The notes beneath the pieces were generated by a model, which saw only the letters and a program-made list of their open reading frames with translations, did no database searches and was not told the origin of the DNA. Of a DNA stretch of 37,437 nucleotides, positions 1,744 through 21,811 are shown one piece after another (the stretch's first letter is position 1; each line of letters begins with the position of its first letter). Location: IMG/VR virus record IMGVR_UViG_3300017991_000228, positions 1 to 37,437 of that record, one strand, 5' to 3'. The position numbers and the translations under genes were made by a program. This DNA is from a virus.

Positions 1744-2355
1744 CTATTCCCCGAGCGAGACGAGAGCGTGAGCGACCAGCTCCATGAGCTGCTGCGCCGG
1801 TGTCTCTTCGCCCGTCTTGATCAGTGCGTCCTTGACGTAGGCGCGGTCGGACTCGTTCTCGAACTTGATCGTGAGCGAGTACGTCTTCGGCTTCGGCGGC
1901 TGTGGCGGTGCCGCGTTCGCACCTTCGAGTTCGTCATCCATTGTGGGCGTGTCGAGCAGTGCATCGATCTCCCACGAAGCGAAGCCGGTGAGCGTGAGTT
2001 CCTCGGGCGTGTAGCCCTCGTCGATGAGCATCGAGAGCTGACGCCCGACCTCCGAGAGATCGAGTTCGCCTCGAAGCCGGTTCAGTGCGAGCCGCAGCAC
2101 TTCGGCGCGGTTGCGATCGGGCGCGACGACGGCAGGGATCTGCGAGAGCCCCACCGCGACCGCGGCCTTCGAGCGATGGACACCGTCCACGATGAGCAAG
2201 TCGCCCTTCTCTTCGACGACGAGGATCGGCTGTAGGAACCCGTCGGTCTTGATCGCTTTGCAGAGCGACTCAAACGCATGGGGCTCCATGACATTCGGGT
2301 TCGCCGTGGGCAGGTACTTGAGTTGAGAGGGGTCGATGTTGCGGATCTCGATCAT
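1744..2355 (-). CDS. ParB/sulfiredoxin-fold protein (ParB-like nuclease domain)
   Basis: A 203-residue protein with an N-terminal ParB/Srx-like domain. It has a LKYLPTANPN start, SLCKAIKTDGFLQPILV, then the conserved DGVHRSKAA motif (57-65) typical of the ParB nucleotide-binding pocket. The family includes CTP-dependent clamp proteins and phage nucleases. No ParA partner is visible, so a DNA-processing or regulatory role is more likely than partition. Residues after about 150 form a proline-rich linker followed by a conserved-looking alpha/beta tail. I chose the ATG at 2355 because it overlaps the TGA of the sigma-like gene (ATGA) and has GGAAGGA 8 bases upstream. An in-frame extension to 2382 would run into that gene. 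Confidence 0.75.
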   Translation of the reverse strand: MIEIRNIDPSQLKYLPTANPNVMEPHAFESLCKAIKTDGFLQPILVVEEKGDLLIVDGVHRSKAAVAVGLSQIPAVVAPDRNRAEVLRLALNRLRGELDLSEVGRQLSMLIDEGYTPEELTLTGFASWEIDALLDTPTMDDELEGANAAPPQPPKPKTYSLTIKFENESDRAYVKDALIKTGEETPAQQLMELVAHALVSLGE

Positions 2356-2912
2356 GCGAGCAGTCCTTCCGATGCCATGCACGCTAGCACCCGATCTTCA
2401 CGGATCGCTTTCTTCATGCGCTTGACGCAGTAGTACAACCGCTTCGTCCGATCGCTATCGCCCTCGGCCTGCTCGGCCACCGTAGTGAGGTCGAGGCAGA
2501 TGGCGAGGGCAAGCTGCCCCTCGGGCACTCTGTCAGCGAGCACTTTCAGCCTCTCGCGGATCTGCGTGCGGTAGACGAGATCATCGTAGTCGAGCGGGTC
2601 GTCTCCGACGTGCGCACTCGTGAGCCGGACCTTCCGAAGATTGCGGAGCTTCGGCACTTCGTCGTTCGACCGAGTGCCCGCGGGCATCATCGCGCGAGTG
2701 AGTCGATCGCCGCACTTCCGCCAGCACGCGCCGTACAGGTAGCCGGCGAAGGTGCCCTTGCTCGGGCTGTAGTTCCGCTGCGCGCGGTGCATGATCTCGA
2801 CCGCATCCTGATAGATGTCGGCGTAATCGTAGGTGACCCCGCGTGCGAGCCAGGCGCGCGCGACGACATCGGCAACCTTGTGTTGGATCTCGGGCGTGAG
2901 CGCGGGCGTCAT
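2352..2912 (-). CDS. Sigma-70 region 2-like protein
   Basis: A 186-residue protein. Residues from about 27 to 75 (DYADIYQDAVEIMHRAQRNY, then SPSKGTFAGYLYGACWRKCGDRL) match the layout of sigma-70 region 2: a DxxQ/D-type core-binding helix, an FxPSKGTF turn, and a Tyr/Trp-containing helix that in sigma factors contacts the -10 element. A possible region-4-like helical segment (VPEGQLALAICLDLTTVAEQ and onward) follows. It may be a phage sigma-like factor redirecting host RNA polymerase to phage promoters, a role that would fit the repeated promoter motif in this window. The start at 2912 has a strong GGAGGT SD 6 bases upstream, and longer in-frame extensions would run antisense through neighbouring coding sequence. 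It overlaps the small membrane ORF upstream and the ParB-like gene downstream by 4 bases each. The sigma assignment rests on pattern only. Confidence 0.55.
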   Translation of the reverse strand: MTPALTPEIQHKVADVVARAWLARGVTYDYADIYQDAVEIMHRAQRNYSPSKGTFAGYLYGACWRKCGDRLTRAMMPAGTRSNDEVPKLRNLRKVRLTSAHVGDDPLDYDDLVYRTQIRERLKVLADRVPEGQLALAICLDLTTVAEQAEGDSDRTKRLYYCVKRMKKAIREDRVLACMASEGLLA

Positions 2913-3019
2913 CGCAGACCTCCGAAGCGGGCGCGGAGCCACGCGAACGCCGAGGCAAAGAAGGCCGCCCCGCCCAGCAGGGCGATCTCGAACACTCCAC
3001 CGCAAGCGCAGGCCAGCAT
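2909..3019 (-). CDS. 36-residue predicted membrane peptide
   Basis: A very short ORF filling the gap between the 282-aa gene and the sigma-like gene. The product begins MLACACGGVFEIALLGGAAF and ends in FASAFAWLRARFGGLR: a Cys-containing N terminus, one hydrophobic helix (about residues 9-27) and an Arg-rich C terminus, so a single-span membrane peptide is predicted. Its ATG overlaps the upstream TGA (TGATG) and its TGA overlaps the downstream ATG (ATGA). This translational-coupling pattern is the main reason to believe it is real. No function can be assigned. The C-terminal codons also contain the SD of the sigma-like gene. Confidence 0.55.
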   Translation of the reverse strand: MLACACGGVFEIALLGGAAFFASAFAWLRARFGGLR

Positions 3020-3867
3020 CACGCGACCTCGCTTTCGGCCTCGATCGTGAGCGCAGCCGAGACCGCGTTCGCCTTCTGCTCTTCGATCTGCGAGCGCAGT
3101 GCGTCGAGCTTCCCTTCAGCCGCAGCACCGAGCAGCTTCTCGAAACGAGCGACCTTGTCGAGATAGGCCATCGCCTGCTCGGCTCGACCACGAAGCGCAC
3201 GGGCACCGAGATCGCCGTCCGTGAGATCGGCATCGAGCTGCTCCGAGAACTGGACGCACTCTTCGATCAAGGCTTCGAGCACCGCGTCGAGCGCCTCGTC
3301 GGAGTTCATCGCGGGGACGAGATGAACCGAGCAGTCGCTCGCGGAGTGAAGAGCATCGGCCCGCTTGCGCCACTCGTCGATCGCGTGGCGCGGGATGAAG
3401 TAGACCCCGCCGGTGTCTCGCAGCGAGAGCGCGTCGCACTCGCGGGCTTGATCGATGAGCCAGGACGAGATGTCCGTCGAGGCTACGTGGAAGACGTGGT
3501 GCCAGAATCGTTCGGTGAGCATCTCGGCCATGTCCTCGTTCGAGAACTTCGGCGTGCCCCCGATGGTGAGCCGCGCGTCGAGGATCACGTCGAAGCGCGG
3601 GCCCTCGTCGGTCGTGACCTGCTCGACGAGGTAGAGCCCGCCGTCCTTCCCCTTCCCCGCACGCATGAACACCGACCCCTTGGCGCACTCCTTCAGCGTG
3701 CGCCGGAGAGCGCGGCGAGGCGTGGGCAGTGGCAGCCGGTGCTCGGGTGCGATGCCGGCGTCGGTGAGTGCGTTGTTGAGATCGTCTCCGTTCACATCTC
3801 CGGTTAGCCGCCAGTAAACGATCGCGCCTGCGAGATCTTCGTTGCTTGAGTCGATTGCGATGATCAT
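3019..3867 (-). CDS. Phage protein of unknown function, 282 aa (possibly DUF6744-like)
   Basis: A soluble 282-residue protein starting MIIAIDSSNEDLAGAIVYWR. The opening LAGAIVYWRLTGDVNGDDLNNALTDAGI, then PTPRRALRRTLKEC and a beta-rich central part, reminds me of a phage family annotated DUF6744. That is recollection of pattern, not a search result. The C-terminal 100 residues are helical and probably coiled (SEQLDADL to KLDALRSQIEEQKANAVSAA). No catalytic motif is evident. The start at 3867 is preceded by AGAAG and by a CACCGACACAAGGA leader also found before several rightward genes. It is the second gene of the leftward operon, after a 112-base spacer that holds two hairpins. Confidence 0.75.
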   Translation of the reverse strand: MIIAIDSSNEDLAGAIVYWRLTGDVNGDDLNNALTDAGIAPEHRLPLPTPRRALRRTLKECAKGSVFMRAGKGKDGGLYLVEQVTTDEGPRFDVILDARLTIGGTPKFSNEDMAEMLTERFWHHVFHVASTDISSWLIDQARECDALSLRDTGGVYFIPRHAIDEWRKRADALHSASDCSVHLVPAMNSDEALDAVLEALIEECVQFSEQLDADLTDGDLGARALRGRAEQAMAYLDKVARFEKLLGAAAEGKLDALRSQIEEQKANAVSAALTIEAESEVA

Positions 3868-4664: not shown

Positions 4665-4796
4665 CAAGAAAGTTGCGACCCCGCCCTACCTCGCACAGCC
4701 CGCAAGGGCGGCCGCTCGGACCGACCCCCGCGGGGTTCGCAGATCGAGCAGATAGCGGGTGATAGGGCACGATCTTCACTTTTCGGCATTTAGGTG

Positions 4797-4825
4797 TTGC
4801 ACGGGATGCACGACTAGGGCATCCT
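4797..4825 (+). promoter_or_regulatory. Possible rightward promoter or operator containing a GTGCATCCCGTG element
   Basis: TTGCAC (4797-4802) could be a -35, but 17 bases on there is only CATCCT (4820-4825), a poor -10. The stretch 4797-4811 is the reverse complement of GTGCATCCCGTGCAA, the same core as in both clear phage promoters but without a recognisable -10 on the minus strand. It may be a binding site for a regulator rather than a promoter. Some promoter for the genes from 4876 is expected here. Confidence 0.35.
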
Positions 4826-4875
4826 CTCTTTGGGTCGGACGCACCGACCCCCAGCACCCGAAAGGAACCGACGCC

Positions 4876-5145
4876 ATGATCACCCCCACCACCCCCGCCG
4901 CCGTCATCGAGACCCTTCGCCAGATTCAGGGCCAGTACGCCAAGGTCCACAAGGCCGCGTTCTCGGCCGCGCCCGTCGCCCTCAACGACGCGCACGTCGA
5001 GATGGAGCCGGAAGAGACTATCGCCGCGGCCAAGATGATCGCCCGCATCGCCGCCAAGATGATCGAGGACGTGGCCGAGTGCGCCGGTGACGACGAGCTC
5101 TTCGACATCGCCGAGCGTCTCACTGACGAGGTCGCCACTTGGTAG
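4876..5145 (+). CDS. Small acidic helical protein of unknown function (89 aa)
   Basis: An 89-residue product of the first rightward gene, starting MITPTTPAAVIETLRQIQGQ. It is almost wholly helical, with heptad-like AAKMIARIAAKMIEDVAE and an acidic end (DDELFDIAERLTDEVATW). No motif of known function is recognised. The ATG at 4876 follows GAAAGGAACC in a leader (CACCGACCCCC, then CCCGAAAGGAACCGA) that is repeated before the next gene, so I prefer it over an in-frame extension to 4759 that would start inside the control region. Confidence 0.65.
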   Translation: MITPTTPAAVIETLRQIQGQYAKVHKAAFSAAPVALNDAHVEMEPEETIAAAKMIARIAAKMIEDVAECAGDDELFDIAERLTDEVATW

Positions 5146-5201
5146 GGCGACGGCGCAACACCACCACCACCGACCCCCGAGTACCCGAAAGGAACCGATC
5201 G

Positions 5202-5663
5202 ATGGCCTACACCCGCACCGTCAAGACCCCCGACACCTTCGGCATGATGAGGCGCACCGCGGCGAAGCACCGCGCGCGAGCGAAAGGCACGATCGCCGCC
5301 GAGGAAGGCCGCCACGCGGGCGGGCCGTGCCCCGCGGTGGCCCTCGCCACCCTTGCGGGCAAGACCTACGGATGGGCCTTCGCCTTCCTCAACCGCGAGA
5401 CCGGCTACACCGGCCGCGGTGAGTTCCGCGGGCCTCTCGACCGCGCGGCGACCAAGGTCTTCGGCCCCGGCCGGAAGCTGACCCCCTCGGGCACATGCGA
5501 GTCGGTCGCGCTCCGCCTCGGGCGCGAGGCCAACGGCTTCATGTACTGCGCCGGCCACGTCATGCCGATCCGCAACGGTCGGCTGCTGAACGCGAGCGCG
5601 AAGCACCGCCGCAAGCGATGCGAGGGCATCACCCTCTTCGAGATCGTCGAGGTCCGCGAGTAG
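5202..5663 (+). CDS. Unknown basic protein, 153 aa
   Basis: A 153-residue basic protein: MAYTRTVKTPDTFGMMRRTA, then an Arg/Lys-rich helix, a Gly/Pro/Cys stretch and a beta-rich half (TYGWAFAFLNRETGYTGRGE, FMYCAGHVMPIRNGRLL), ending KRCEGITLFEIVEVRE. Its Cys and His residues (GPC, CES, YCAGH, KRCEG) are not in a standard zinc-binding spacing. A nucleic-acid-binding early protein is possible but unproven. The ATG at 5202 follows CGAAAGGAACCGATCG in a near-copy of the leader of the previous gene. An in-frame extension to 5139 would overlap that gene and is less likely. Confidence 0.65.
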   Translation: MAYTRTVKTPDTFGMMRRTAAKHRARAKGTIAAEEGRHAGGPCPAVALATLAGKTYGWAFAFLNRETGYTGRGEFRGPLDRAATKVFGPGRKLTPSGTCESVALRLGREANGFMYCAGHVMPIRNGRLLNASAKHRRKRCEGITLFEIVEVRE

Positions 5664-5692
5664 CGGCCCGCACCATGAAAGGAGACCGAGCC

Positions 5693-6022
5693 ATGAACAC
5701 CGAGATCGACTTCACTGCCATCGTCCGCTCACGGGTGCCCCACGGGGCCCGAGCGCTCCGCCTGAACCTCGTGTGCCTGACGACCGAGCTGCTGTGGCTC
5801 GCGCCCTGCCGCGAGGCGTGGGCGATCTGGGTCGGCCCTCATCTCGTCGGAGTGCTCGCGCGAAGCGAGCAGGGCTGGTCGTGGTCCCTCGGGACCGCGT
5901 GCCCGACCGGCGTGCTCGCAGCGGCCCACCGCGAGACCGCGATCACTCGCATGGCCCTCGCTACCGAGGCGCGTGCCCTTGATCTTCGTATCCAAACCGC
6001 AACCGAATCGGGGAATGTCTAG
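5693..6022 (+). CDS. Unknown small protein, 109 aa
   Basis: A 109-residue protein starting MNTEIDFTAIVRSRVPHGAR. It has a Trp-rich central sheet (ELLWLAPCREAWAIWVGPHL, WSWSLGTACPTG) and a C-terminal helix. No known motif is recognised. The ATG at 5693 has AAAGGAGA about 8 bases upstream. An ATG at 5674 in the same frame (MKGDRAMNTEI) contains that SD within its coding sequence and is less likely. It sits between the small unknown genes and the AAA+ gene, 41 bases before the latter. Confidence 0.6.
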   Translation: MNTEIDFTAIVRSRVPHGARALRLNLVCLTTELLWLAPCREAWAIWVGPHLVGVLARSEQGWSWSLGTACPTGVLAAAHRETAITRMALATEARALDLRIQTATESGNV

Positions 6023-6063
6023 CGACACCCTCGAACCCACCGACACAAAGGAGAACCGACACC

Positions 6064-7230
6064 ATGAACACGATCCACGCTCTTCAGACCATCATGTGCT
6101 CGCCCGGTATCGCTGGCCGTCGAGGGCTGCGCGCCCTGTTTTGGGGCAAGCCCGGCGTCGGCAAGACCGCTCTCATCGAATCGCTCTGCGAGTCAATGGG
6201 CGCACTGCTGATCACGATCATCGCCAGCATCCGCGAGCCCGCCGACTTCCTCGGGTTGCCAATGCCCGACGGGAAGGGCGGGGTTATCTATGCCGCGCCC
6301 GGCTGGGCTCGCCGTGCGAACGAGGCGGCCTCGAAGGGAAAGCTCGTCGTGGTCTTCGTCGATGAGATCACGACCTGCGCTCCAGCGGTTCAGGCCGCAC
6401 TGCTCCGCGTGGTCAACGAAGGCTACGTCGGGGACGTGAAGCTACACGACAACGTGGTCTTCATCGCGGCTGCCAACCCGCCCGAGATCGCGGCGGGCGG
6501 CTACGATCTCTCCCCGCCGATGGCGAACCGATGGATGCACATTGACTGGGCCGACCCCACGGCCGCCGAGTGGAGCGAGGGCATCTTGTCGGACTGGGCC
6601 GACACTCTCAACGTGGAGAAGGCCGAGGTCACGATCGCTCGAATCGAGCAGCGCCATCCGGTCACGCTGGCGAAGGCGAAGGGGCTGGTGACCGGGTTCC
6701 TCCGCTCGAACTCGCAGCACTTGATCACACTCCCCGATGGCGGAGATCCGAACGCGAGCCGAGCGTGGCCTTCGCTGCGAACGTGGGAGCTGGCGATCAA
6801 GGTCATCGCCGGTGCCGAGGCGAACGGCCTCGCGGAAGAGACGGTCGATGTGCTGCTCGAAGGCTGCGTCGGTCGCGGTGTTGCGGGTGAGCTGCGCCAG
6901 TACCAGGCGTCGGCCGATCTCCCCGATCCCGCGAAGCTGCTCGATGCCTCGACTCCCTCGAAGGTCTGGAAGCACAACCCCGAGCGGCCCGACATCACCG
7001 CGGCGGTGCTGAACTCCTGCGCCGCACTGGTCACGCCGAAGAAGGCCGAGAAGCGTGCCGAGCGTGGTGACGCGTTGTGGCAGATCATCGGGGCGGTCAC
7101 GAAGGATGCGGGCGATCTCGCGGTCACTTCAGGTCGAGCCATCGCTCGCGCCGGCCACAACCGCAGTGCCACCGCGCGCAAGGTCATGGTCAAGATGGGC
7201 CCGGTCATGCAAGCGATGGGAGAGATCTGA
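6064..7230 (+). CDS. MoxR-family AAA+ ATPase
   Basis: A 388-residue AAA+ ATPase. Walker A GKPGVGKT is at 28-35, Walker B VVVFVDEI at 95-102, sensor 1 FIAAANP at 133-139, and an NR pair after PPMAN (154-156) marks the region of the arginine finger. The short N terminus, the DFLGLP element after motif I (where MoxR proteins have DLxG), and LLRVVNEG after Walker B place it in the MoxR clade. MoxR ATPases work as chaperone-like remodelers paired with a VWA protein that selects the target. Such a partner is encoded two genes downstream (8170-9507). The C-terminal 180 residues are helical and include a winged-lid-like part. It is cytoplasmic, and AAAGGAG precedes the ATG. Confidence 0.88.
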   Translation: MNTIHALQTIMCSPGIAGRRGLRALFWGKPGVGKTALIESLCESMGALLITIIASIREPADFLGLPMPDGKGGVIYAAPGWARRANEAASKGKLVVVFVDEITTCAPAVQAALLRVVNEGYVGDVKLHDNVVFIAAANPPEIAAGGYDLSPPMANRWMHIDWADPTAAEWSEGILSDWADTLNVEKAEVTIARIEQRHPVTLAKAKGLVTGFLRSNSQHLITLPDGGDPNASRAWPSLRTWELAIKVIAGAEANGLAEETVDVLLEGCVGRGVAGELRQYQASADLPDPAKLLDASTPSKVWKHNPERPDITAAVLNSCAALVTPKKAEKRAERGDALWQIIGAVTKDAGDLAVTSGRAIARAGHNRSATARKVMVKMGPVMQAMGEI

Positions 7231-7232
7231 TC

Positions 7233-8138
7233 ATGGGCCGCCGACTTCGCACCGAAGAGATCCGACGGAAGCGAGCGGCGGCGCGTGCCGACCTCCGAGC
7301 CCAGCGCATCGGCTCGGAGGTCATGGCCCGCGTCCCGTGCTCGCACGCCTCGCACCATACCAGCTGCCCCGTGTACGTCGTCACGAACGTCAAGGGTTCG
7401 CTCGTCCATGTGTCCTCGGGCTGCACCCGCAAGCCACCGACCGACGAAGAGATCGCGGTCATGCAAGGGCTGCTTGGTCCGAACGAGTACCAGTCCTGCC
7501 GCGATGTCGTCCGCACGATCAAGGATGCGCTCGTCGCTCGATCGTGGGATGAGCAGCGGACGGTCGGCGCGAACCTGAATGCGCTCGGCATTTCCTCCGA
7601 CTACGGGGCCAACGTGGTGCTGTACCACGCGATCGAGTCAGTGCGAGAGGTAGCGGACGATCGCCGTCGCCGTGACGAGCCACTCAAAGACCCGGCCGCC
7701 GTACTTCAAAAGCAGATCGAAGGTCGCACGCTCACCCGGCTCGTCGATGGCCTCGTGCTTCCGTCAGGGTGGCGAGTGGTGCCCGATGTTTATCGGCGCA
7801 TCGATCGAAAGCCGATCATCCGGGTTCGCTTTCACAGTCACGAGTGGGGCGAGAGCTTCCACGTCGCCACCTATCGCCGAGGCGGACGCTTCGTGCTTCA
7901 CACTCACGAGATGAACGCACTCGCTCGAAGCTACTCGTCGAACGCACCGCGCAACGGCCGAGGCAAGAAGGCGTGCTCGGTCTGCGGCAAGTGGGTGTCG
8001 AGTTTGAGTGGCCACGTCAAGACCGAGCGCCACCGCGCCGCGGTCGAGCTGGCGGTCATGGACGCGCTCGCGGTGATCGGTGCTCGCCTGCGGCGCAAGG
8101 ACTGGCGGGAGCGAGTTTCCGCTTGTGCATCCCGTTGA
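7233..8138 (+). CDS. Unknown protein with C-terminal C2H2-type zinc finger
   Basis: A 301-residue basic protein lying between the AAA+ and VWA genes. Near the C terminus, C248-x2-C251-x9-H261-x5-H267 (CSVCGKWVSSLSGHVKTERH) is a near-canonical C2H2 zinc finger, close in spacing to the Ros/MucR type. Four other Cys residues (36, 45, 64, 89) in the N-terminal third may bind a second metal. The middle (IIRVRFHSHEWGESFHVATY) is beta-rich. The start at 7233 lies 2 bases after the TGA of the AAA+ gene, so the two are coupled; GGGAGAG lies about 12 bases upstream. An earlier in-frame start inside the AAA+ gene is rejected. Function is unknown: a DNA-binding regulator or a target/adaptor of the MoxR-VWA pair. 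Confidence 0.7.
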   Translation: MGRRLRTEEIRRKRAAARADLRAQRIGSEVMARVPCSHASHHTSCPVYVVTNVKGSLVHVSSGCTRKPPTDEEIAVMQGLLGPNEYQSCRDVVRTIKDALVARSWDEQRTVGANLNALGISSDYGANVVLYHAIESVREVADDRRRRDEPLKDPAAVLQKQIEGRTLTRLVDGLVLPSGWRVVPDVYRRIDRKPIIRVRFHSHEWGESFHVATYRRGGRFVLHTHEMNALARSYSSNAPRNGRGKKACSVCGKWVSSLSGHVKTERHRAAVELAVMDALAVIGARLRRKDWRERVSACASR

Positions 8139-8152
8139 TCTCGTGATACACT
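8123..8152 (+). promoter_or_regulatory. Sigma70-like promoter with extended -10 before the VWA gene
   Basis: TTGTGC (-35, 8123-8128), an 18-bp spacer beginning ATCCCGT, and TACACT (-10, 8147-8152) preceded by TGA (extended -10). Predicted start near 8159. The ATG of the VWA gene is at 8170 with GGAGGA between them. The -35, the flanking ATCCCGT and the spacer length match the leftward early promoter at 4635-4664. It overlaps the last codons of the zinc-finger gene. Confidence 0.7.
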
Positions 8153-8169
8153 AGGAACGGAGGACCACC

Positions 8170-9507
8170 ATGTTTCAGTTCGATACCAAGCTCAACCACC
8201 GCGACAAGATCGCAGCCGCACGCGGGCTCGCGCGCAAGCGGATGCCCTACTTCTCTGCCGCGCTCTTCAATCTCATGCCGCGCCCGATGCCGGGGATGTT
8301 CAAGCTGGTCGGTGCCGCGATGGCGGTGACGCCTCGCTCGATCATGTACTACGACCCCGACGTGGTCGAGAACGAGTGGGATCTCGAAGATGTCGAGTTC
8401 GGTCTGCTTCACGAGATCGGCCACGTCCTTCGAGATCACTCGCAGCGATGCGAAGAGTACGGCTACAACCCGAAGTTGTGGAACATGGCCGGCGATGCGG
8501 CGATCAACGACGACTTGCTCGCGGCCGGCTGCAAGGCGCTATCCACCGACATCGTGCCCTCGAAGATCATCGATCCGAAGTCGAAGAAGCCGATGCCCGA
8601 TGGCCTCCCCGAAGAGGCTTACTATGACGCGCTCCGCCAGCAGAAGCCGAAGGACGATGACGGGGGCGGCAAGGGCGTCCCTCGCCCCGGCGCGGGGAAC
8701 TGCGGAGGCGCGGCCGGGAACGCACTCGACGGGTTGCCCGATGACGGGACGCACTCGCAGTGCTCGAAGGGTCGCTCGCTCGTCGACATCGAGCGCGTGA
8801 AGAAGGCGGTCGCAGGCGCGATCAAGGATCACGTCGAGAAGCACGGTGCCGGCTCGGTGCCTGGCGGTTGGCAGGTCTGGTCGGACGAGCAGCTCACTCC
8901 GCCGCAGATCCGATGGCAGGACAAGCTCCGTCGTGCGGTGCGGTCTGGAGTCGCGCGCGTCAAGGGCATGGTGAACTTCCACTATGAGCGCCCGAGCCGT
9001 CGACAGTGGGGCATCGGGTACGGTGCCGGCCGTCCGATCCTCCCTGCCATGTACGCGCCGGTGCCGAAGATCGGGGTCTTCGTCGACACGTCCGGCTCAA
9101 TGGGTGCCGATGATCTTCGGATCGCTATGAGCGAGGTCGACGGCGTGCTCAAAGCCTCGGGCGGTGAGGTCATCTTCGGCGCGTGCGACGCAAGCGTTCA
9201 CGGGATCACGAAGGTCGCCGATGTCAAAGCCGCGTGCGCTGCGTTGAAGGGTGGCGGCGGGACGAACTTCTGCCCGGTGTTCGACGAGCTGGAAGCGATG
9301 AACCGGATGACGAGGCCGCACGTCGTCGTGTTCCTGACTGATGGCGATGGCCCGGCGCCCGAGCGGTGCCCCGACAATCTTCACGTCATTTGGGTCATCG
9401 TGGGTAAGCACGGTCGCATCCCGTACACTCGAAAGGGCAAGGAGATCGCGTGGGGAGATCAGATCATTGTTCAAGAGCCAGGCGGTAAGACGAGCCGAGC
9501 GGCTTAG
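8170..9507 (+). CDS. Metallopeptidase-like plus VWA-like domain protein (DUF2201 type)
   Basis: A 445-residue two-domain protein. The N-terminal part has a zinc-peptidase motif HEIGH (81-85) with a further His at 90, followed by LWNMAGDAAIND (103-114), as in the putative metallopeptidase domain found with DUF2201. A Gly/Asp-rich linker (about 158-200) leads to a C-terminal VWA-like domain with a MIDAS signature DTSGS (306-310), a following GGGGT (361-365) and LTDGDG (389-394). VWA proteins of this sort pair with MoxR ATPases, and one is encoded at 6064-7230. A target-binding or target-cleaving role in a remodelling complex is inferred. It has its own promoter and GGAGGA SD and is followed by a terminator. 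HEIGH suggests real peptidase activity, which is untested. Confidence 0.85.
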   Translation: MFQFDTKLNHRDKIAAARGLARKRMPYFSAALFNLMPRPMPGMFKLVGAAMAVTPRSIMYYDPDVVENEWDLEDVEFGLLHEIGHVLRDHSQRCEEYGYNPKLWNMAGDAAINDDLLAAGCKALSTDIVPSKIIDPKSKKPMPDGLPEEAYYDALRQQKPKDDDGGGKGVPRPGAGNCGGAAGNALDGLPDDGTHSQCSKGRSLVDIERVKKAVAGAIKDHVEKHGAGSVPGGWQVWSDEQLTPPQIRWQDKLRRAVRSGVARVKGMVNFHYERPSRRQWGIGYGAGRPILPAMYAPVPKIGVFVDTSGSMGADDLRIAMSEVDGVLKASGGEVIFGACDASVHGITKVADVKAACAALKGGGGTNFCPVFDELEAMNRMTRPHVVVFLTDGDGPAPERCPDNLHVIWVIVGKHGRIPYTRKGKEIAWGDQIIVQEPGGKTSRAA

Positions 9508-9540
9508 GCGCGCCCGGCTACTCGCCGCGTCAGGATCAAT

Positions 9541-9569
9541 CAAGGGGCCGTTCACACGACGGCCCCTTG
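9541..9569 (+). terminator. Strong hairpin terminator after the VWA gene
   Basis: CAAGGGGCCGT (9541-9551) and ACGGCCCCTTG (9559-9569) form a perfect 11-bp stem with a 7-base loop, followed by TTCGTGATCTTT. It lies 34 bases after the stop codon and separates the MoxR-VWA cassette from the lysis/nucleotide operon. Confidence 0.75.
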
Positions 9570-9593
9570 TTCGTGATCTTTGGATGGTGTACT
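9567..9593 (+). promoter_or_regulatory. Possible weak extended -10 promoter for the 9631 operon
   Basis: TGGTGTACTT contains TGTACT (9588-9593) preceded by TGG, one mismatch from the TGnTATACT of the other promoters in this window. The -35 is weak (TTGTTC at 9567-9572 gives a 15-bp spacer). Since a terminator lies just upstream, some promoter is expected here. Confidence 0.3.
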
Positions 9594-9630
9594 TGTTGCT
9601 CACGATCATCTCGACCGGAGGACTACTGCT

Positions 9631-9903
9631 ATGGCTCTCACCATGACCGAGATCAACGACATCCATGCCCGACTTCATCGGGCTGCGCCGCACTTGCGCG
9701 GTGAGATCGATCGGCTCGTGCGCGAGGCCGTAGGCACGCGACGCGTCCAGTGGGTCGAGGTCACTCACGCCGATGGCTGCGTCGAGGTCATGGCCGCTGA
9801 CGAGTACCAGCGGCTCACCGCGACCGATCTGGCGCATCGTGGCTTGCGTATCCTGTCCGCAGCCGAAGCAGAGAAGCTCGGCCGAAAGGACACGCACTCA
9901 TGA
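9631..9903 (+). CDS. Small unknown protein, 90 aa
   Basis: A 90-residue protein starting MALTMTEINDIHARLHRAAP, with an amphipathic helical N-terminal half and a short beta part (RRVQWVEVTHADGCVEVMAA), then a helical C terminus. No motif of known function. CCGGAGGAC lies 10 bases before the ATG. Its TGA overlaps the ATG of the lysozyme gene by 4 bases, so it heads that operon and is probably co-translated with it. Confidence 0.65.
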   Translation: MALTMTEINDIHARLHRAAPHLRGEIDRLVREAVGTRRVQWVEVTHADGCVEVMAADEYQRLTATDLAHRGLRILSAAEAEKLGRKDTHS

Positions 9904-10745
9904 GCTACAGCATCTCGGGCATCGACGTTTCCAAGTGGCAAGGGTCGGTCGACTTCAAGCAGGTCCGCGACAGCGGCCAGAGGTTCGCCATCGTCAAGGC
10001 CACCGAAGGACGCGGCTATGTCGATCCTCGGTTCTTGGAGAACTGGCAGAAGCTACTCGAACTCGAAGGCACCTTCTACCGCGGTGCCTATCACTTCGCT
10101 CGACCCGACTCGGTCGGCGGAGCGGCCGACGGCAAGGCAGAGGCGCTCGACTTCTGCGCTGCGCTGAAGGCGGGCGGCGGATATCTGGCCGGGTGCCTAC
10201 CGCCCGCGCTCGACTTCGAGAAGTACAGCGACTTCGGGGCGAAGGAGAACGTGCCGTGGATCGACGCCTTCGTGAAGACCGTCGAGGACGAACTCGGTCG
10301 GTCGCCGATGATCTACACCGGCAAGAACATCTGGCGGTACGAGGTCGGGAACTCGGATGCGTTCAAGCATATCCCGCTGTGGCTCGTGAACTACTCGCGC
10401 GCCGGCATCGACGGGGCAGGCTATCCGACCGCGGCGATGGACTCTCTGCCGTGGGATGCGTTCGTGCTGTGGCAGTGGAGCGCCGGGGGCGACTTCGCCT
10501 ACGGCCCGAAGGTGCCGGGGATCGATGGGGGCACGCGCTCCGTCGATCTGAACTGGTGGCACGGGACCGAGGAAGAGCTTGCCGCGTTCGCCATGGTCGA
10601 CGACCAGCCGGACCAACCGCAGTGCGACCCGGACAAGCAAGCGCTGCTCGCCATGCTCGAATCTGCCGAAGATGATCTCGAACTCGGGCTGACGAAGGTC
10701 CGCTCGATCCGCTGGGCTCTCGAAGCCTTGGAGACCAAAGCATGA
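9900..10745 (+). CDS. GH25-family lysozyme (phage endolysin)
   Basis: A 281-residue muramidase that hydrolyses the beta-1,4 bond of peptidoglycan glycan strands. The GH25 signatures are clear: GIDVSKWQGSVDF near the N terminus with the family Asp, the strand FAIVKATEG, GAYHFARP, the catalytic DxE of PALDFE (about 102-107), PMIYTG, LWLVNYS and FVLWQWS, ending with SVDLNWW. The catalytic domain fills residues 1-215. The C-terminal 60 residues are acidic and helical and may be a small binding or oligomerisation tail. No signal peptide or membrane anchor is seen, so release needs a holin. Candidates are the membrane proteins at 13647-13853 and 14086-14382. It is followed directly by a lipoprotein gene with ATGA overlap. 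Confidence 0.92.
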   Translation: MSYSISGIDVSKWQGSVDFKQVRDSGQRFAIVKATEGRGYVDPRFLENWQKLLELEGTFYRGAYHFARPDSVGGAADGKAEALDFCAALKAGGGYLAGCLPPALDFEKYSDFGAKENVPWIDAFVKTVEDELGRSPMIYTGKNIWRYEVGNSDAFKHIPLWLVNYSRAGIDGAGYPTAAMDSLPWDAFVLWQWSAGGDFAYGPKVPGIDGGTRSVDLNWWHGTEEELAAFAMVDDQPDQPQCDPDKQALLAMLESAEDDLELGLTKVRSIRWALEALETKA

Positions 10746-11134
10746 AGCGCATGATGATCACGATCACCCTCGCACTCGGCCTCACCGGCTGCGCCGCCTC
10801 TCAACAGCGGATGATGGTGAAGGCCGAGCGGGTACTCGAAGCCGGCTCGTCGCAGTGGGACGCCCAGGTCGACAAGAAGATCGAAGAGTGCCGAGCGAAG
10901 GATCTGCCGACCCCAGAAGAGCGCGCCGAGTGCGTCGGTGACACGAAGAAGATCAACGACGAGATCGTCGAGCCCGCGGTCACTGCCGCGGTCGCGGCTC
11001 TCCGCGCGTACTGGATCGGGGTCGCCGTTGGCGAGGACCCGAAGGAACTCCGCCGGCACATCGACAACTTCATCGATGCGATCGACGATCTTCCCCCCGA
11101 GGCTTTCGGGGGCCTGCTCAAACTCGTGAGGTAG
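10742..11134 (+). CDS. Small lipoprotein (possible outer-membrane spanin-like or lysis accessory)
   Basis: A 130-residue protein with a lipoprotein signal: MKRMMITITLALGLTGCAAS has a positively charged start, a hydrophobic core and lipobox LTGC, so Cys17 should be lipidated after signal-peptidase II cleavage. The mature part is helical and charged (VERVLEAG-like start, then KKIEECRAKDLPTPEERAEC and KELRRHIDNFIDAIDDLPPE). Immediate overlap with the endolysin gene suggests a lysis role like an o-spanin (Rz1), but it is longer and less proline-rich than Rz1 and no i-spanin lies beside it. Superinfection exclusion is another possibility. Confidence 0.7.
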   Translation: MKRMMITITLALGLTGCAASQQRMMVKAERVLEAGSSQWDAQVDKKIEECRAKDLPTPEERAECVGDTKKINDEIVEPAVTAAVAALRAYWIGVAVGEDPKELRRHIDNFIDAIDDLPPEAFGGLLKLVR

Positions 11135-11138
11135 ACCC

Positions 11139-11321
11139 ATGAAGGAACTGTTCGGCATCGTAGGTGAGTTGGTCGGCGAGATCGTCGACGCGATCAAGGA
11201 CGGCGTGAGCGATGAAGAGATCCTCGAACGGATCTCGAAGCCTGGCGGAGTCGGTGAGAAGCTGATCGCCGCCGCACGCGCGCGACGATCGAAGCTCGAC
11301 GACTTCATCGCAAACGGGTGA
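11139..11321 (+). CDS. Small helical protein, 60 aa
   Basis: A 60-residue protein (MKELFGIVGELVGEIVDAIK at the start, ending KLDDFIANG) made of an amphipathic N-terminal helix, a short EEILERIS helix and a basic C-terminal helix. It starts 4 bases after the stop of the lipoprotein gene. The first 20 residues could lie on a membrane surface. No function recognised. Confidence 0.6.
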   Translation: MKELFGIVGELVGEIVDAIKDGVSDEEILERISKPGGVGEKLIAAARARRSKLDDFIANG

Positions 11322-11340
11322 GGGGAACGCGACCGAGACC

Positions 11341-11958
11341 ATGAGCGCCCCTTGCTTCATCGCCCTCGAAGGGATCGACGGTAGCGGCACCACGACGCAG
11401 TGCCAGCTACTCGTCGAAGAGCTACACCGCCGAACCCATCGAGAAGTGATCAAGACCCGCGAGCCCTACGACGCGCACTTGACCAGGCGCATCCGTCAGT
11501 GGCTCACCGAAGACGCGCCGCCGCGTCACTCCCTCCTGCTAGCGTTCGCACTCGATCGGCAGATCCATCTCGAAGAGGTCGTGCTGCCGGCCCTCGAACG
11601 CGGGGCCATCGTCGTCACCGACCGCTACAAGTTGAGCACGTCCGCCTACCAGCGGAAGCACAACCCATGGGCCTTGATCGAAGCCATGCTCGACGAGGCA
11701 CCGGACCCCGATCTGACTCTTCTGCTGCGCGTCACTCCAGAAGAGGCCGCCGCGAGGGTCGCTTCGAGGTCGGTGACACCCGATGCCTATGAGCGGAGCA
11801 TCGACTTCCAGCGGTACGTCGACGAGGCTTACATGACCGCGGCCGAGCACGCACGGGAAGGCGGAGCGGTCGTCGAGGTTGTCGAGGCGCAAGGGATGTC
11901 GATCCTCGAAACCCACGACGCGCTGACCAGGGTGGTCTGTGACCGCTTTGGGTTCTGA
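11341..11958 (+). CDS. tmk: Thymidylate kinase
   Basis: A 205-residue dTMP kinase that makes dTDP for DNA synthesis. FIALEGIDGSGTTTQ (7-21) is the family P-loop, RRTHREVIKTREPYD carries the conserved REP, LLLAFALDRQIHLEE is the substrate helix, and VVTDRYKLSTSAYQ carries the DRY/S motif that binds dTMP. LLLRVTPEEAAARVASR is the LID region. Length matches the family. It lies in the nucleotide/lysis operon and overlaps the RuvC-like gene by 20 bases. Confidence 0.92.
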   Translation: MSAPCFIALEGIDGSGTTTQCQLLVEELHRRTHREVIKTREPYDAHLTRRIRQWLTEDAPPRHSLLLAFALDRQIHLEEVVLPALERGAIVVTDRYKLSTSAYQRKHNPWALIEAMLDEAPDPDLTLLLRVTPEEAAARVASRSVTPDAYERSIDFQRYVDEAYMTAAEHAREGGAVVEVVEAQGMSILETHDALTRVVCDRFGF

Positions 11959-12442
11959 CAAGATCCTCGCGCTCGACCTTGGCACGCGCTGCGGCTACGC
12001 GGTGCTTCAAGGTCGGCACCGAGTCGACTCGGGCCGCTGGTCGCTGCTCTCATCTCGCAAGGGGCGTCACCGCGCCGAGCGCTGGCTGAACTTCCGCGCG
12101 CGCGTTCGATCGCTGGTGGTCGAAGTGCGGCCCGACGTGATCGCCTATGAACGCGTCCGCCGGCATGTCGGTACGTCTGCCGCGCACGTATACGGGGGCT
12201 GGCTCGCTTCGATCGAAGAGCTTGACTTAGAGTGGTCGACTGCGGGAGTCTCGATCGAGATCATGGCGATAGAGGTCGGCACATGGAAGAAGGCCGCGGT
12301 CGGGAACGGTTCGGCGACCAAGATCGAAGTGGCCAAGGCCATGCGCCGCCGCTTTCGCTACAAGCCCGCGACCGAGGACGAGAGTGACGCGCTCGCCATC
12401 GCCGAGGCCGCGCGCCTCATGAGGACCGGAGCCTACCCATGA
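11939..12442 (+). CDS. RuvC-like Holliday junction nuclease
   Basis: A 167-residue nuclease of the RNase H/RuvC fold, expected to cut branched DNA during replication, recombination or packaging. The acidic residues are in place: Asp in ILALDLGTRCGYAV (9-22), Glu in VIAYERVRR, and the Asp pair in ATEDESDALAIAEA near the C terminus. KAAVGNGSATKIEVAKAM is the RuvC-typical Lys/Gly-rich loop preceding the last acidic helix. The start is a GTG at 11939 inside the tmk 3' end. A TTG at 11948 is possible but less likely. Its TGA overlaps the next ATG by 4 bases. Confidence 0.85.
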   Translation: MTALGSDKILALDLGTRCGYAVLQGRHRVDSGRWSLLSSRKGRHRAERWLNFRARVRSLVVEVRPDVIAYERVRRHVGTSAAHVYGGWLASIEELDLEWSTAGVSIEIMAIEVGTWKKAAVGNGSATKIEVAKAMRRRFRYKPATEDESDALAIAEAARLMRTGAYP

Positions 12443-12849
12443 AGATCGCCATCTATCCCGTGAGCGAGTACGAACTCGCGGCCGTGTCGCTCGAAGATGC
12501 GGTCGTCGTCGTCGCCTCGCACGCCTACGACACCGAAGAGACCGATCGCCAAGACGCGGTGCTCGCGTTGCGTGATCTCTGCCAGAGCACGGTCCCCGGT
12601 GGTCCGCACTCGATCGTCTGGGTGCCGATGCCCGAGCACCACCCTGAAGTCTCGGTCGCGCTCGGCAAGATCCGCCGCCGCGAGTACGAAGAGTCACGCG
12701 ATGACCAATCGCAGATCGAATCGGGGAAGTCATGGTGTGCTTCGTGCGCTCATCGTCGTGTCTGCGCTGCGGCGGAGGCGGTCGAGGCCATCGAAGCGAA
12801 GATCATCGACTGCCCCGAGCACGTAGCCCTGCCCGAAGGAGAACCATGA
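12439..12849 (+). CDS. Unknown protein with a Cys-rich C terminus, 136 aa
   Basis: A 136-residue protein beginning MKIAIYPVSEYELAAVSLED. The N-terminal 75 residues look like a small alpha/beta domain (VVVVASHAYD, SIVWVPMPEHHPE). C100-x2-C103-x5-C109 and C125 (WCASCAHRRVC, then DCPEH) could bind a metal. It is flanked on both sides by ATGA overlaps (RuvC-like gene before, Dam-like gene after), so it is firmly in the operon. No function is recognised. Confidence 0.65.
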   Translation: MKIAIYPVSEYELAAVSLEDAVVVVASHAYDTEETDRQDAVLALRDLCQSTVPGGPHSIVWVPMPEHHPEVSVALGKIRRREYEESRDDQSQIESGKSWCASCAHRRVCAAAEAVEAIEAKIIDCPEHVALPEGEP

Positions 12850-13463
12850 CCAACCCGAAGAAGCCCCCTCAGTTCCACTACCTGCTGCCGCCCGAAGAGT
12901 GCGAGCGCGTCTATGCCGTGCTGGGCGGGAAGCCGGGTCTCGATCCGTGCGGACACCCGGAGCAGTTCCTCGAAGCGGAGCGCGTCGCCTATGGCATGGG
13001 CGACGGTGACGATGGCCTCATGCTGAACTGGCGCGAGCACGAGACGGTGTTCCTCAACGCCCCGCATGGTGAGCGTGAGCCGGACTGGGAAGGCATCGAG
13101 CGAGACAACCCCGGATGGGAACGACCGAGCTGGCCGTGGCATCCCTTCTCGAAGTGGATCACGAAGGCGTCGGTCGAAGCGCAGAGCGGTTGCACCGTGC
13201 TCGCCTTCTTGCCGGCGAGCACCGACCGCAAGTGGTTCCACCACTACGTCGTCGCCGCGAACTCGATCGCGTTCTTGGAACAGCGCGTGAAGTGCTACGT
13301 GCCGCGAGAGAACGCGGACCCCGAGCGAGGACCGCAGCCGATGAACCCGCACATGCTCGCGTTGTGGACCGACGACAGCGAGACCGCGGATCGGTTCTTC
13401 GAGACGTACAAGGGGCGCGGCATGGTCGTCGAGCCGTTCGCGGTAGGAGGCGAGGACAAGTGA
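12846..13463 (+). CDS. Phage Dam-type N6-adenine methyltransferase family protein with an altered catalytic motif
   Basis: A 205-residue protein with the layout of the phage DNA N-6-adenine methyltransferase family (Dam, PF05869 type). LDPCGHP (32-38) corresponds to the family LDP[CA] motif, then W62 and VFLNAPHG (68-75) at the place of the catalytic NPPY, then FSKWITKASVEAQSG and VLAFLPASTDRKWFHHYV (117-135), the typical second half. The catalytic Pro-Tyr of NPPY is replaced by Ala-Pro-His (NAPH), so activity is uncertain. It may methylate phage DNA to evade host nucleases, bind DNA without methylating, or act on a different base. ATGA overlap upstream, GTGA downstream. Confidence 0.75.
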   Translation: MTNPKKPPQFHYLLPPEECERVYAVLGGKPGLDPCGHPEQFLEAERVAYGMGDGDDGLMLNWREHETVFLNAPHGEREPDWEGIERDNPGWERPSWPWHPFSKWITKASVEAQSGCTVLAFLPASTDRKWFHHYVVAANSIAFLEQRVKCYVPRENADPERGPQPMNPHMLALWTDDSETADRFFETYKGRGMVVEPFAVGGEDK

Positions 13464-13666
13464 CCGAGCAAGAAGCGATCAACGTGCTGAACGAGGTCGG
13501 TGCGAAGTACCACGGCACGCGGCAAGATCACGCCATGATCACGTCGGCCATCGACACTCTTCGACGTGCGGTCGATCTGCTCGACGTGCTACGACGCGAG
13601 CGTGTCGAACAGCAAGAAGCGGCGAAGGAAGCCGCACCGCCCGACGATGAACCCCCCACGCACTGA
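13460..13666 (+). CDS. Small helical protein, 68 aa
   Basis: A 68-residue, mostly helical and charged protein starting with GTG (MTEQEAINVLNEVGAKYHGT) and ending in a Glu/Pro-rich tail. The middle (IDTLRRAVDLLDVLRRERVEQQ) is coiled-coil-like. The GTG overlaps the TGA of the Dam-like gene (GTGA). No function recognised. Confidence 0.6.
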   Translation: MTEQEAINVLNEVGAKYHGTRQDHAMITSAIDTLRRAVDLLDVLRRERVEQQEAAKEAAPPDDEPPTH

Positions 13667-15563: not shown

Positions 15564-17384
15564 CTACTGGTTCGACAAGAAGAGCTGAAGCTCCCACACA
15601 ACGGCGATGTTCTTGATCAGCCCTGCGTTCGCGCCCCATCCGAAAGACAGGTTGAGTTCGCCCGTGCCGGCCGGTGCGTCGACGAAGATAGCCGTGAGGT
15701 CATCGACGCCGCCGTTGAGCTGGCGCGCGGTGTCGAAGTCCGAGTCGAAGGCGACAGTCTGCGCCACGCCCGCGGAAAGGGAGAACACTACCTCGAAGGT
15801 GTTGTGCGTCCCGTCCACGGGGTTCGAGTTGTCGTCCCACGCGACCAGGGTTCCGCGTACCGTGCCGACTACGGTGTTGATCGGAGCAGCACCGCCGTTA
15901 AAGAGCCGAACGTCGGCCTGCGAAATACCGGCCGTAAGCGTGTGCTGGAGGTTCTTGCCGTAGTGGCGAACCGGGCTAACGCCGGTGCCAGCCCCGAAGG
16001 TCCAGTCGTTGTTGCCGTCGAAGTCCTCGGGAATGTGCCGAAGGGTCGCGTCCTGTAGCAACAAGTCCTCGGTGATGATGGCACCCGCGTTCGCATCGAG
16101 TCGCGCGTTGAAGTCGTTGATCGCGGTCCATGTGTTCGCGTTGCCGAGCGACCCCTTCAGCGCGTCGAGAGCGGCGAGCACGAACTCAAGTGTGCCGGGC
16201 GTGATGTCTGTGCCCGTGAGCCCGACACCGATGAGCCCCGCACCGTCGCTGCCGCCGGTCTGGTCGGCGAGGTCTTGCGTGACCCCGAGGAAGGCCGTTT
16301 GAACCTCGGGGGCAAGGCTGAGGTTCGACCAGACACCGGGCATCGGTGCGCCGTCGAAGGTGATCGCGCTCGCCGGGTGCGCGTTGCCTGCGTTGGCGAT
16401 GTGCGTGTTGAGTTCATCCGCGAGGCCATCCGCGAAGTCGGTGATCGTGCCCGCACGGATCTTGTAGTTGAGCCCGTCGTAAGCGAAGACGGTCTGCCGG
16501 CGCGTCAAGTCATCGATGTAGCCATCGGTGCCGGCAGGGGGCGGAAGGTCTACGATCGCGGTCGTGCCGAACTTGATCAGCACGTCGGCGAGTAGGATCG
16601 CGTCGGGGCGCAGAGCAGGGCGCGTGGGGCCACCCGCACCGACCGCGGCCGCGAGCGGGAAGTCGAAGATGGCGAGCGTACTGCCGCCCGTCGCAAGCAG
16701 GCTCGCGCCAGGCCCGGTGCCGTTCGTGGTGATCTCCACGAAGCCACCGTTGTCCGCTGCGGTGATACCCGCCACGGTCGCTTGAATCACTGCCGCGACC
16801 TCGGCCGCGGTGGCCAACGCGATGTTGGCGAAGTCGCCCGCGTTGAAGGTCACCGTCACGGGCACGCCGCCATCGACTGAGAGGTCGAGAGTGTCGCCGT
16901 TCGTGAGCGCGTAGGTCTCCGCGTTGCCGGACGTGTAGACCGCAGCCGAACCCGCGGCGCTCTCTGCCGCTTGATCAACGATAAACTGGAACGACTCTTC
17001 GCGGCGGTATTGAAGCGGAACTCCGTTGCCGTCGACGCGCGGATCGGAGAGCGCACGATCAAAGGCGATGAAGATCGAGAGCCACTTCTCGTTGCCGGCA
17101 CCGGCCACTGCGGTCGGCACCGAGTTCGAGTCGACGGACAGGTCGAGGTTCTGCGCGCCGGAGACGAAGCACCGCTGCCCGCTCTGGTCGTAGGCCACTC
17201 CCGTCGGGATGTCGACGGTGAGGTTCGCCGTCGGGAAGGCTTCGTTGACTTCGAGCCCCTGGACGATCCCGACGTAGTCGTTGTCGGACTGAAGGCGCTG
17301 GTCTGCCGCCTCGGCGAAGTCGAAGACCTCGTCCATGTCGGCCTGGGTGACGAGCTGCTCGAAGTAGAAGTCAAATCGGTTCAA
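15564..17384 (-). CDS. Tail appendage/fibre protein with a repeated beta module (606 aa)
   Basis: A 606-residue predicted beta-rich appendage. The N-terminal 120 residues (MNRFDFYFEQLVTQADMDEV, then VPTAVAGAGNEKWLSIFIAF) look like a baseplate-attachment domain. Residues 151-245 form the module also present in the sheath and in the 385-aa protein (SGNAETYALTNGD, VTFNAGDFANIALATAAEVA). The middle holds linker-like and trimer-forming segments, and the C-terminal 150 residues are a beta-sandwich-like domain. The start is a TTG at 17384 with GGAGG 7 bases upstream, which lies in the last codons of the HNH gene. It probably recognises the host surface. No catalytic motif is seen. Confidence 0.7.
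   Translation of the reverse strand: MNRFDFYFEQLVTQADMDEVFDFAEAADQRLQSDNDYVGIVQGLEVNEAFPTANLTVDIPTGVAYDQSGQRCFVSGAQNLDLSVDSNSVPTAVAGAGNEKWLSIFIAFDRALSDPRVDGNGVPLQYRREESFQFIVDQAAESAAGSAAVYTSGNAETYALTNGDTLDLSVDGGVPVTVTFNAGDFANIALATAAEVAAVIQATVAGITAADNGGFVEITTNGTGPGASLLATGGSTLAIFDFPLAAAVGAGGPTRPALRPDAILLADVLIKFGTTAIVDLPPPAGTDGYIDDLTRRQTVFAYDGLNYKIRAGTITDFADGLADELNTHIANAGNAHPASAITFDGAPMPGVWSNLSLAPEVQTAFLGVTQDLADQTGGSDGAGLIGVGLTGTDITPGTLEFVLAALDALKGSLGNANTWTAINDFNARLDANAGAIITEDLLLQDATLRHIPEDFDGNNDWTFGAGTGVSPVRHYGKNLQHTLTAGISQADVRLFNGGAAPINTVVGTVRGTLVAWDDNSNPVDGTHNTFEVVFSLSAGVAQTVAFDSDFDTARQLNGGVDDLTAIFVDAPAGTGELNLSFGWGANAGLIKNIAVVWELQLFLSNQ
16650..16934 (-). repeat. Copy of the ~90-residue structural module in the 606-aa protein
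   Basis: Residues 151-245: GNxxxYALTNGDTL, DGGVPVTVTFNAGDFANI, ATAAEVAAVI, DNGGFVEIT, a GPGASLLATGG stretch and IFDFP. The same order of elements occurs in the sheath (37108-37395 and 36841-37080) and in the 385-aa protein (21467-21748). Confidence 0.75.
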
Positions 17385-20653: not shown

Positions 20654-21811
20654 CTACGGGAAGTCGGGGTTGTTGTCCTGCCCGATCCATTCCTCGGCGA
20701 GCAGCGGGAAGTCGCGGGCGGTGACCGTGTCCACCGACCCACCGGGCGGCGGGATGACTTGGATCGAGATGTCCGCGTCGAGGTTCGTCGGCCAGAGTGA
20801 GAGAAGGTTGAAGAGGTTGGACGACTCGATGCCGACACTGCCCGTGTCGATCGCAGTGCGCAAGGCGAGGCAGATGTCGATCGTAGTGTCCGCCCCGCCT
20901 GCGGTGTATGTGAAGGACGTGCCATTGAGCACGATCCGCCAGAGCCCAGCCGCCGCGGTGACGAAGGTGACCACGTAGAACGTGAGCACCACGCTCTCGA
21001 AGTCGTCGGCGGTCTTCGTACCGTTGGCGAAGTCGGCACCGACGAAGCTCGGCACCGGGAACGGGTTGCCCCATCCTGACTCGAAGTCCTCCGGGTTCGC
21101 GCTCGCGTTGAGCAGGTTCGCCGGGACGAACGAGAAGTACGTCGGCAGACCCCATCCCTTGTTGAAGGTCTCGAAGGGCTCCGTGTCCGGGTCGAACGCG
21201 GCAGCCTCGGCGATGAAGCTGGTGAGGAAGCCGGTCGAACTCCACGCGTCGAAGGGCTCGAAGGGCTTAGGCAAGATCAGCGGGTCGAAGATCGCATCGT
21301 CGAAGCTCGACGAGACCGTGATCGCAATCCAGCCTTCGAGGTCGAAGATCTCTTCGGGGCGCCCGTTCTCATCGGCCCACTCTGCCCACTCGTTGACCGA
21401 GTCGGTGTCATCGATCACGGTCCATCCGTTCGGAGGTCCGCCCGCGTAGGTCTCTCCGCTCACGGTGCCGAGCGGAAACCCGAGGGCCGTGTTCGCCGGC
21501 CCGCCGAGCATATCGATCTCCACGTCTTCACCCGTGAGCAAGGACGTGAGTCGAACGAAGCCCCCATCGGCAGAGGCGCCAAGATCATCGACACGCGCTT
21601 CGAGCAGTGCCGCGACCTCGGCCGCAGTAGCGTTGCCGATGTCGCCGAAGTCGGATGCCAGGAAGATCACCGACTCAGTGACCCCGGCAAAGGTGAACTC
21701 AAGCAGATCGCCTTCGGTGAACGAATACGGCTCCGCGTTCCCACTGACGAGGGTCGGCCCGGTGCCGGGCGGATTCTCGAACGAGAGGTTGGGGAACGTG
21801 GCCGCGACCAT
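20654..21811 (-). CDS. Structural appendage protein with a repeated beta module, 385 aa
   Basis: A 385-residue acidic, beta-rich protein. Residues 22-115 (VSGNAEPYSFTEGDLLEFTF, ASDFGDIGNATAAEVAALLE, GGPANTALGFPLG) are a copy of the module also found in the sheath and in the 606-aa protein. The centre is rich in aromatic and acidic residues (DSVNEWAEWADENG, FDPLILPKPFEPFD). Residues about 265-355 form a second repeat type (VTFVTAAAGLWRIVLNGTSF, GGADTTIDICLALRTAID) seen in many tail proteins. It probably sits on the baseplate or fibre. Receptor binding is inferred from its place between gpJ and the tail-I gene. Confidence 0.6.
   Translation of the reverse strand: MVAATFPNLSFENPPGTGPTLVSGNAEPYSFTEGDLLEFTFAGVTESVIFLASDFGDIGNATAAEVAALLEARVDDLGASADGGFVRLTSLLTGEDVEIDMLGGPANTALGFPLGTVSGETYAGGPPNGWTVIDDTDSVNEWAEWADENGRPEEIFDLEGWIAITVSSSFDDAIFDPLILPKPFEPFDAWSSTGFLTSFIAEAAAFDPDTEPFETFNKGWGLPTYFSFVPANLLNASANPEDFESGWGNPFPVPSFVGADFANGTKTADDFESVVLTFYVVTFVTAAAGLWRIVLNGTSFTYTAGGADTTIDICLALRTAIDTGSVGIESSNLFNLLSLWPTNLDADISIQVIPPPGGSVDTVTARDFPLLAEEWIGQDNNPDFP
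21467..21748 (-). repeat. Copy of the ~90-residue structural module in the 385-aa protein
   Basis: Residues 22-115 contain the same ordered elements as the copies at 16650-16934 and in the sheath: GNAEPYSFTEGD, DFGDIGNATAAEVAALL, GGFVRLTS and TALGFP. Confidence 0.75.

Follow-up and report, generated by a model that had tools for sequence, protein, structure and literature searches.

The window analysed here, a stretch of 37,437 nucleotides of IMG/VR virus record IMGVR_UViG_3300017991_000228, carries a contractile-tail gene cluster on its minus strand. On the plus strand, three genes form a single tight run: a MoxR-type AAA+ ATPase of 388 amino acids (6064..7230; Pfam and PHROG_1297), a zinc-finger protein (ZnF) of 301 amino acids from an unnamed family with relatives in MoxR-VWA operons (7233..8138), and a metallopeptidase-VWA protein of 445 amino acids with DUF2201_N and DUF2201 domains (8170..9507; Pfam and PHROG_1314). 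The ZnF gene is taken to start at the ATG at 7233, the mechanical ORF start at 7077 being set aside, and ends at 8138. The three ORFs, the motifs and the gene order are those given in the initial annotation. The cassette strand also encodes an endolysin, a thymidylate kinase and RuvC, while the tail genes lie elsewhere. The window probably represents about one third of a genome: one relative whose sheath is of this type has a contig of 108,577 bases that begins and ends within the VWA gene, which is what a complete circular map would produce.

Two proteins are encoded upstream of the cassette and on the opposite strand, one ParB-like and the other weakly matching sigma-70 region 2 (1744-2382 and 2352-3080, both minus strand). 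A domain of about 90 amino acids occurs in at least two copies in the tail sheath protein (35326-37398, minus strand), and two further minus-strand proteins (20654-21811 and 15564-17384) have a single copy apiece, with E-values that are inflated by the use of these same proteins in building the model.

In five members of the ZnF family described below, the MoxR and ZnF genes are spaced by -4 to +11 bp; for the sixth, L342, the printed sequence gives about 63 bp. Two members, L002 and L007, have overlapping ZnF and VWA genes. Moreover, the promoter scan indicated no sigma-70-like site across 4700-13600 and hence none in front of the VWA gene, which together with the overlaps leaves the separate VWA promoter that had been proposed without support. 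The terminator placed after the VWA gene fared better in part: a strong terminator-like hairpin is found there (about 9541..9569, plus strand; MFE -30.3 kcal/mol for 9530-9585, z = -5.3), but it has no clean T run and is therefore absent from the list of the terminator scan.

The MoxR and metallopeptidase-VWA pair

The MoxR protein matches the Pfam families AAA (2.4e-9), AAA_5 (2.2e-7) and AAA_3 (1e-6) as well as PHROG_1297 (1.2e-43), and its translation contains an intact Walker A motif GKPGVGKT (residues 28-35; 6145..6168, plus strand), a Walker B motif FVDEI (residues 98-102; 6355..6369, plus strand) and the motif AAANP, in agreement with its earlier assignment to the MoxR clade. E101 is invariant in alignment A3. 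Judged from its sequence, the protein is thus the MoxR-class AAA+ ATPase with Walker A and Walker B motifs that characterises the phage MoxR/metallopeptidase-vWA pair. Its closest solved relative by profile is the AAA module of Midasin (1.6e-27) rather than a bacterial MoxR.

The VWA protein shows matches to DUF2201_N (PF13203, 1.1e-30), DUF2201 (PF09967, 2.1e-17) and PHROG_1314 (5e-52). Both of its previously reported motifs are found in this gene, namely the HExxH metallopeptidase motif HEIGH (residues 81-85; 8410..8424, plus strand) and the MIDAS motif DTSGS (residues 306-310; 9085..9099, plus strand); of 137 distinct VWA ORFs, 131 contain HExxH and all contain D.S.S, while D109 is invariant and H90 almost so. 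A confident AlphaFold2 model (pLDDT 87) was matched by Foldseek, through its VWA domain, to MDN1-MIDAS (prob 1.00) and NorD (prob 0.96). The protein is accordingly read as an N-terminal metallopeptidase domain joined to a VWA domain, with predicted peptidase activity. PHROG_1314 and many deposited phage genomes label this protein 'HNH endonuclease'. We reject that identity for the window copy, which has no HNH match in Pfam and solely DUF2201_N and VWA domains, and our findings put the label in doubt in many phage genomes.

Such pairs are already known in phages and common there. A MoxR AAA+ ATPase with a vWA domain fused to an N-terminal metallopeptidase is described for group 2.2 jumbo phages by Iyer et al. 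(2021; PMC7824862), where a role in virion assembly is proposed. Our census covered 158 loci that hold a relative of the VWA protein; MoxR accompanies it in 150 of them, and several of the remaining loci end at a contig edge; this census is biased in that all loci were found through a VWA or MoxR gene, and it includes some near-duplicates. Isolate phages with the pair include a Schitoviridae phage, Moorella phages and Thermus phages. In the literature searched, we found no paper on MoxR-VWA pairs in N4-like phages or Schitoviridae, and no demonstrated role for the pairs in phages, though they are widespread there. The idea of a target-specific remodeler holds for MoxR-VWA pairs as a general class, but PMC7824862 shows that the pair itself is not new in phages.

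The cassette resembles several known systems without being identical to any of them. It shares with the jumbo-phage pair (PHROG_1297 and PHROG_1314) both protein types, their adjacency and the vWA-metallopeptidase fusion, whereas the zinc-finger third gene has no counterpart in the accessible description of that pair (PMC7824862). NorQ-NorD and CbbQ-CbbO likewise combine a MoxR ATPase with a VWA partner, and the VWA fold found here matches NorD; however, they possess neither a metallopeptidase domain nor a zinc-finger protein, and they activate bacterial enzymes. Among solved chains, Midasin (Rea1/MDN1) lies nearest to the MoxR profile and, through MDN1-MIDAS, is also a top match of the VWA model, but this eukaryotic protein unites several AAA modules in one giant chain, lacks an HExxH domain and acts on ribosome precursors. 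The p618/p892 proteins of Acidianus two-tailed virus form another viral AAA-VWA pair (cited in PMC7824862 and PMC7911831), which differs in belonging to an archaeal virus and in being reported, in the former source, without a peptidase domain.

The vWA-MoxR ternary conflict systems (Kaur et al. 2020, PMC7159879) also consist of MoxR, VWA and a variable third component, but there the third component is a VMAP, FtsH or beta-propeller protein, and ZnF matches none of these. Membership in these systems finds no support: the bpMoxR family PF20030, the sole MoxR-type criterion applied, matches the MoxR protein below its cut-off (E 0.0086, 15.6 bits against 27) and no VMAP, FtsH or beta-propeller Pfam match was obtained in any of the three cassette proteins. 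The suggested link to defence or conflict lost ground in PADLOC-DB as well, where the MoxR protein shows weak partial AAA matches only and the ZnF and VWA proteins show none, so that identity with a PADLOC defence system is also dismissed. The p618/p892 pair is not known to have a zinc-finger partner.

The zinc-finger protein and its relatives

Searches with the ZnF protein found nothing in Pfam, PHROGs, NCBIfam or isolate phages, which agrees with the earlier view that the gene lies outside the known MoxR-VWA pairs. Single-protein and two-member searches of IMG/VR retrieved only L002, in which the gene order is the same and the identities to the window are 69% for MoxR, 31% for ZnF and 75% for VWA; ZnF is the least conserved alignable gene between the two (31% against 39-75% elsewhere). 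Among 12,749 ORFs scored with the two-member model, nothing but the training copies and L001/L086, which carry the same genes as the training copies, ranked above the middle genes of L007 and L012. The latter reached only E 0.07 and 0.13, and a profile-profile comparison of the two-member profiles gave E 6.9e-9. A four-member model applied to contigs picked by tail-sheath similarity alone detected two further members, each within a MoxR-VWA operon: the gene order is MoxR-ZnF-VWA in G045 and VWA-MoxR-ZnF in G041. Nothing beyond known members emerged when A4 and the L341 copy were used in later scans. The E-values of members used in model building are strong by construction and are not taken as evidence.

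In total, these two included, five diverged relatives are recognised (L002, L007, L012, L341 and L342), with 19-31% identity to the window copy and every one in a MoxR-VWA operon. The initial annotation had staked its proposal on the conservation of the three genes together in related phages, and six contigs do carry the cassette, in the order MoxR-ZnF-VWA in five members and VWA-MoxR-ZnF in one. The ZnF family is the new part, found in a group of large uncultured phages.

The six-member alignment has invariant columns at C36, C64, C89, R169, C248, C251, H261 and H267, and an additional column, C45, holds a cysteine in the window and a histidine in the five relatives. The finger C-x2-C-x9-H-x5-H noted earlier is present in the 301-residue product as C248, C251, H261 and H267 (7974..8033, plus strand), invariant in all six members, while C36, C45, C64 and C89 (alignment columns 37, 46, 65 and 92) constitute a predicted N-terminal zinc site (7338..7499, plus strand). 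ZnF is accordingly predicted to hold two structural zinc sites, C-[C/H]-C-C and C2H2, in a protein whose remaining sequence changes more rapidly than every neighbouring gene. Its structure model is weak overall (pLDDT 60) and better over the finger, and Foldseek gave nothing significant for it. The zf-met family (PF12874) comes close to the L007 copy (5.5e-4, 20.6 bits against a cut-off of 21.2) and has no match to the window copy. A SWIM finger was rejected, as there is no Pfam match and the ligand spacing is at odds with the SWIM pattern. An Arg/Gly-rich ORF of L008 with a C2H2-like motif was likewise discarded, not being recognised by the ZnF models.

Of the 26 rows that make up the close clade in the VWA tree, only six carry ZnF, which is hence an accessory to the MoxR-VWA pair rather than an essential component. 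Its distribution on the tree is clustered (3 of 500 shuffles as low) without forming a single supported clade, and a set of 80 bacterial VWA loci yielded no copy.

Possible functions of the cassette

By sequence, at least six diverged phages combine an intact MoxR-class ATPase, a partner whose HExxH domain is N-terminal and whose MIDAS-bearing VWA domain is C-terminal, and, linked to these, a protein predicted to hold two zinc sites. We consider the chances about even that the three genes make up one ATP-driven protein-remodelling machine. By analogy with NorQD and midasin, MoxR would form a hexamer on which the VWA protein docks, its MIDAS would grip a client, and ATP turnover would pull or twist that client; NorQD offers the template for a MoxR ring with a VWA protein that twists the client (PMC13036017). 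The HExxH domain may also cut the client. Rapid divergence around conserved zinc ligands suggests that ZnF is a specificity subunit recruiting the client, quite possibly a nucleic-acid-bound one, and that it would thereby select the target of the remodeller or protease, although fast divergence also fits weak constraint. The linkage of the pair, the resemblance of the VWA protein to MDN1-MIDAS and NorD, and the position of the cassette apart from the tail genes all support a remodelling machine.

A simpler possibility is that the ZnF gene is a bystander in the operon, for instance a DNA-binding regulator, in line with its absence from most close relatives and with the other small zinc-binding or helical genes that fill the same gap elsewhere. 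We regard this as improbable, given that the linkage holds in all six members although the relatives have diverged far from the window copy and one of them has a rearranged gene order, and that ZnF was never seen apart from the pair in the contigs searched. The same linkage, together with an invariance that is nearly restricted to the putative zinc ligands, speaks for ZnF as part of the remodeller. A chaperone for cofactor insertion or enzyme activation, acting on a phage or host metalloenzyme in the manner of NorQD, CoxDE and CbbQO, would account for the fold match to NorD and would follow most well-studied MoxR-VWA pairs (PMC9976466, PMC13036017); yet no candidate metalloenzyme adjoins the cassette and the fused HExxH domain is foreign to those systems, which makes this role very unlikely.

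A virion-assembly chaperone-protease, in which the pair would remodel structural proteins and trim them, has been proposed for the same pair type in group 2.2 jumbo phages (PMC7824862) and would find an analogy in Acidianus two-tailed virus. The PF04984 tail-sheath search misses the sheath of the window itself, and the window's sheath protein was used as the query. Sixteen contigs with a related sheath are 60 kb or longer; eight of them have a strong VWA match and eight have none. Genes can be missing from fragments, but four of the latter eight are at least 95 kb. Three of the eight VWA-positive contigs carry ZnF, as against none of the others. A related tail can thus apparently be built without the VWA gene. 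Moreover, the pair also occurs in the Schitoviridae phage and others without this sheath, and the cassette lies outside the tail gene arm; a virion-assembly role, one of those first envisaged, is weakened by these results and appears unlikely. Alternatively, the machine may serve host takeover or anti-defence by dismantling a host defence or nucleoprotein complex, with ZnF evolving fast to track its target. The uneven occurrence of the machine in phages that share a related sheath, the non-structural neighbours and the putative adaptor being the fastest-diverging gene are consistent with this, but there is no defence-linked neighbour or PADLOC family, no search suggests a specific target, and it amounts to a narrower version of the three-part remodeller; it is conceivable, though we would not expect it. 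For the three-part remodeller as such, we infer that a host or replication-phase complex is a more likely client than the virion tail. It would be a long way from there to a split, midasin-like phage machine with a peptidase, in which ZnF is a matrin-like adaptor and a host nucleic-acid-protein complex is dismantled during infection, and we give this picture very little credence.

A known phage machine seems to have an unrecognised third part that is probably zinc-binding and changes fast. Being linked to the pair and yet diverging rapidly, ZnF may provide a handle on the substrate of the machine and could be used as bait, and the cassette may serve as a small model, from bacterial viruses, for midasin-type AAA-MIDAS machines.

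Other proteins are also associated with MoxR-VWA loci. In 24 loci an unnamed helical protein of about 290 amino acids separates MoxR from VWA, and in seven it precedes MoxR (for instance L027 5126-5995, L036, L058, L061, L075 and L084, among others); neither Pfam nor PHROGs gave a convincing match for the members tried, and the protein is a second candidate for a third component of these loci. Unrelated small proteins with Cys/His pairs are found between MoxR and VWA in L090 (4258-4752), L093 (5500-5988), L095 (5110-5304) and L071 (5485-5715).
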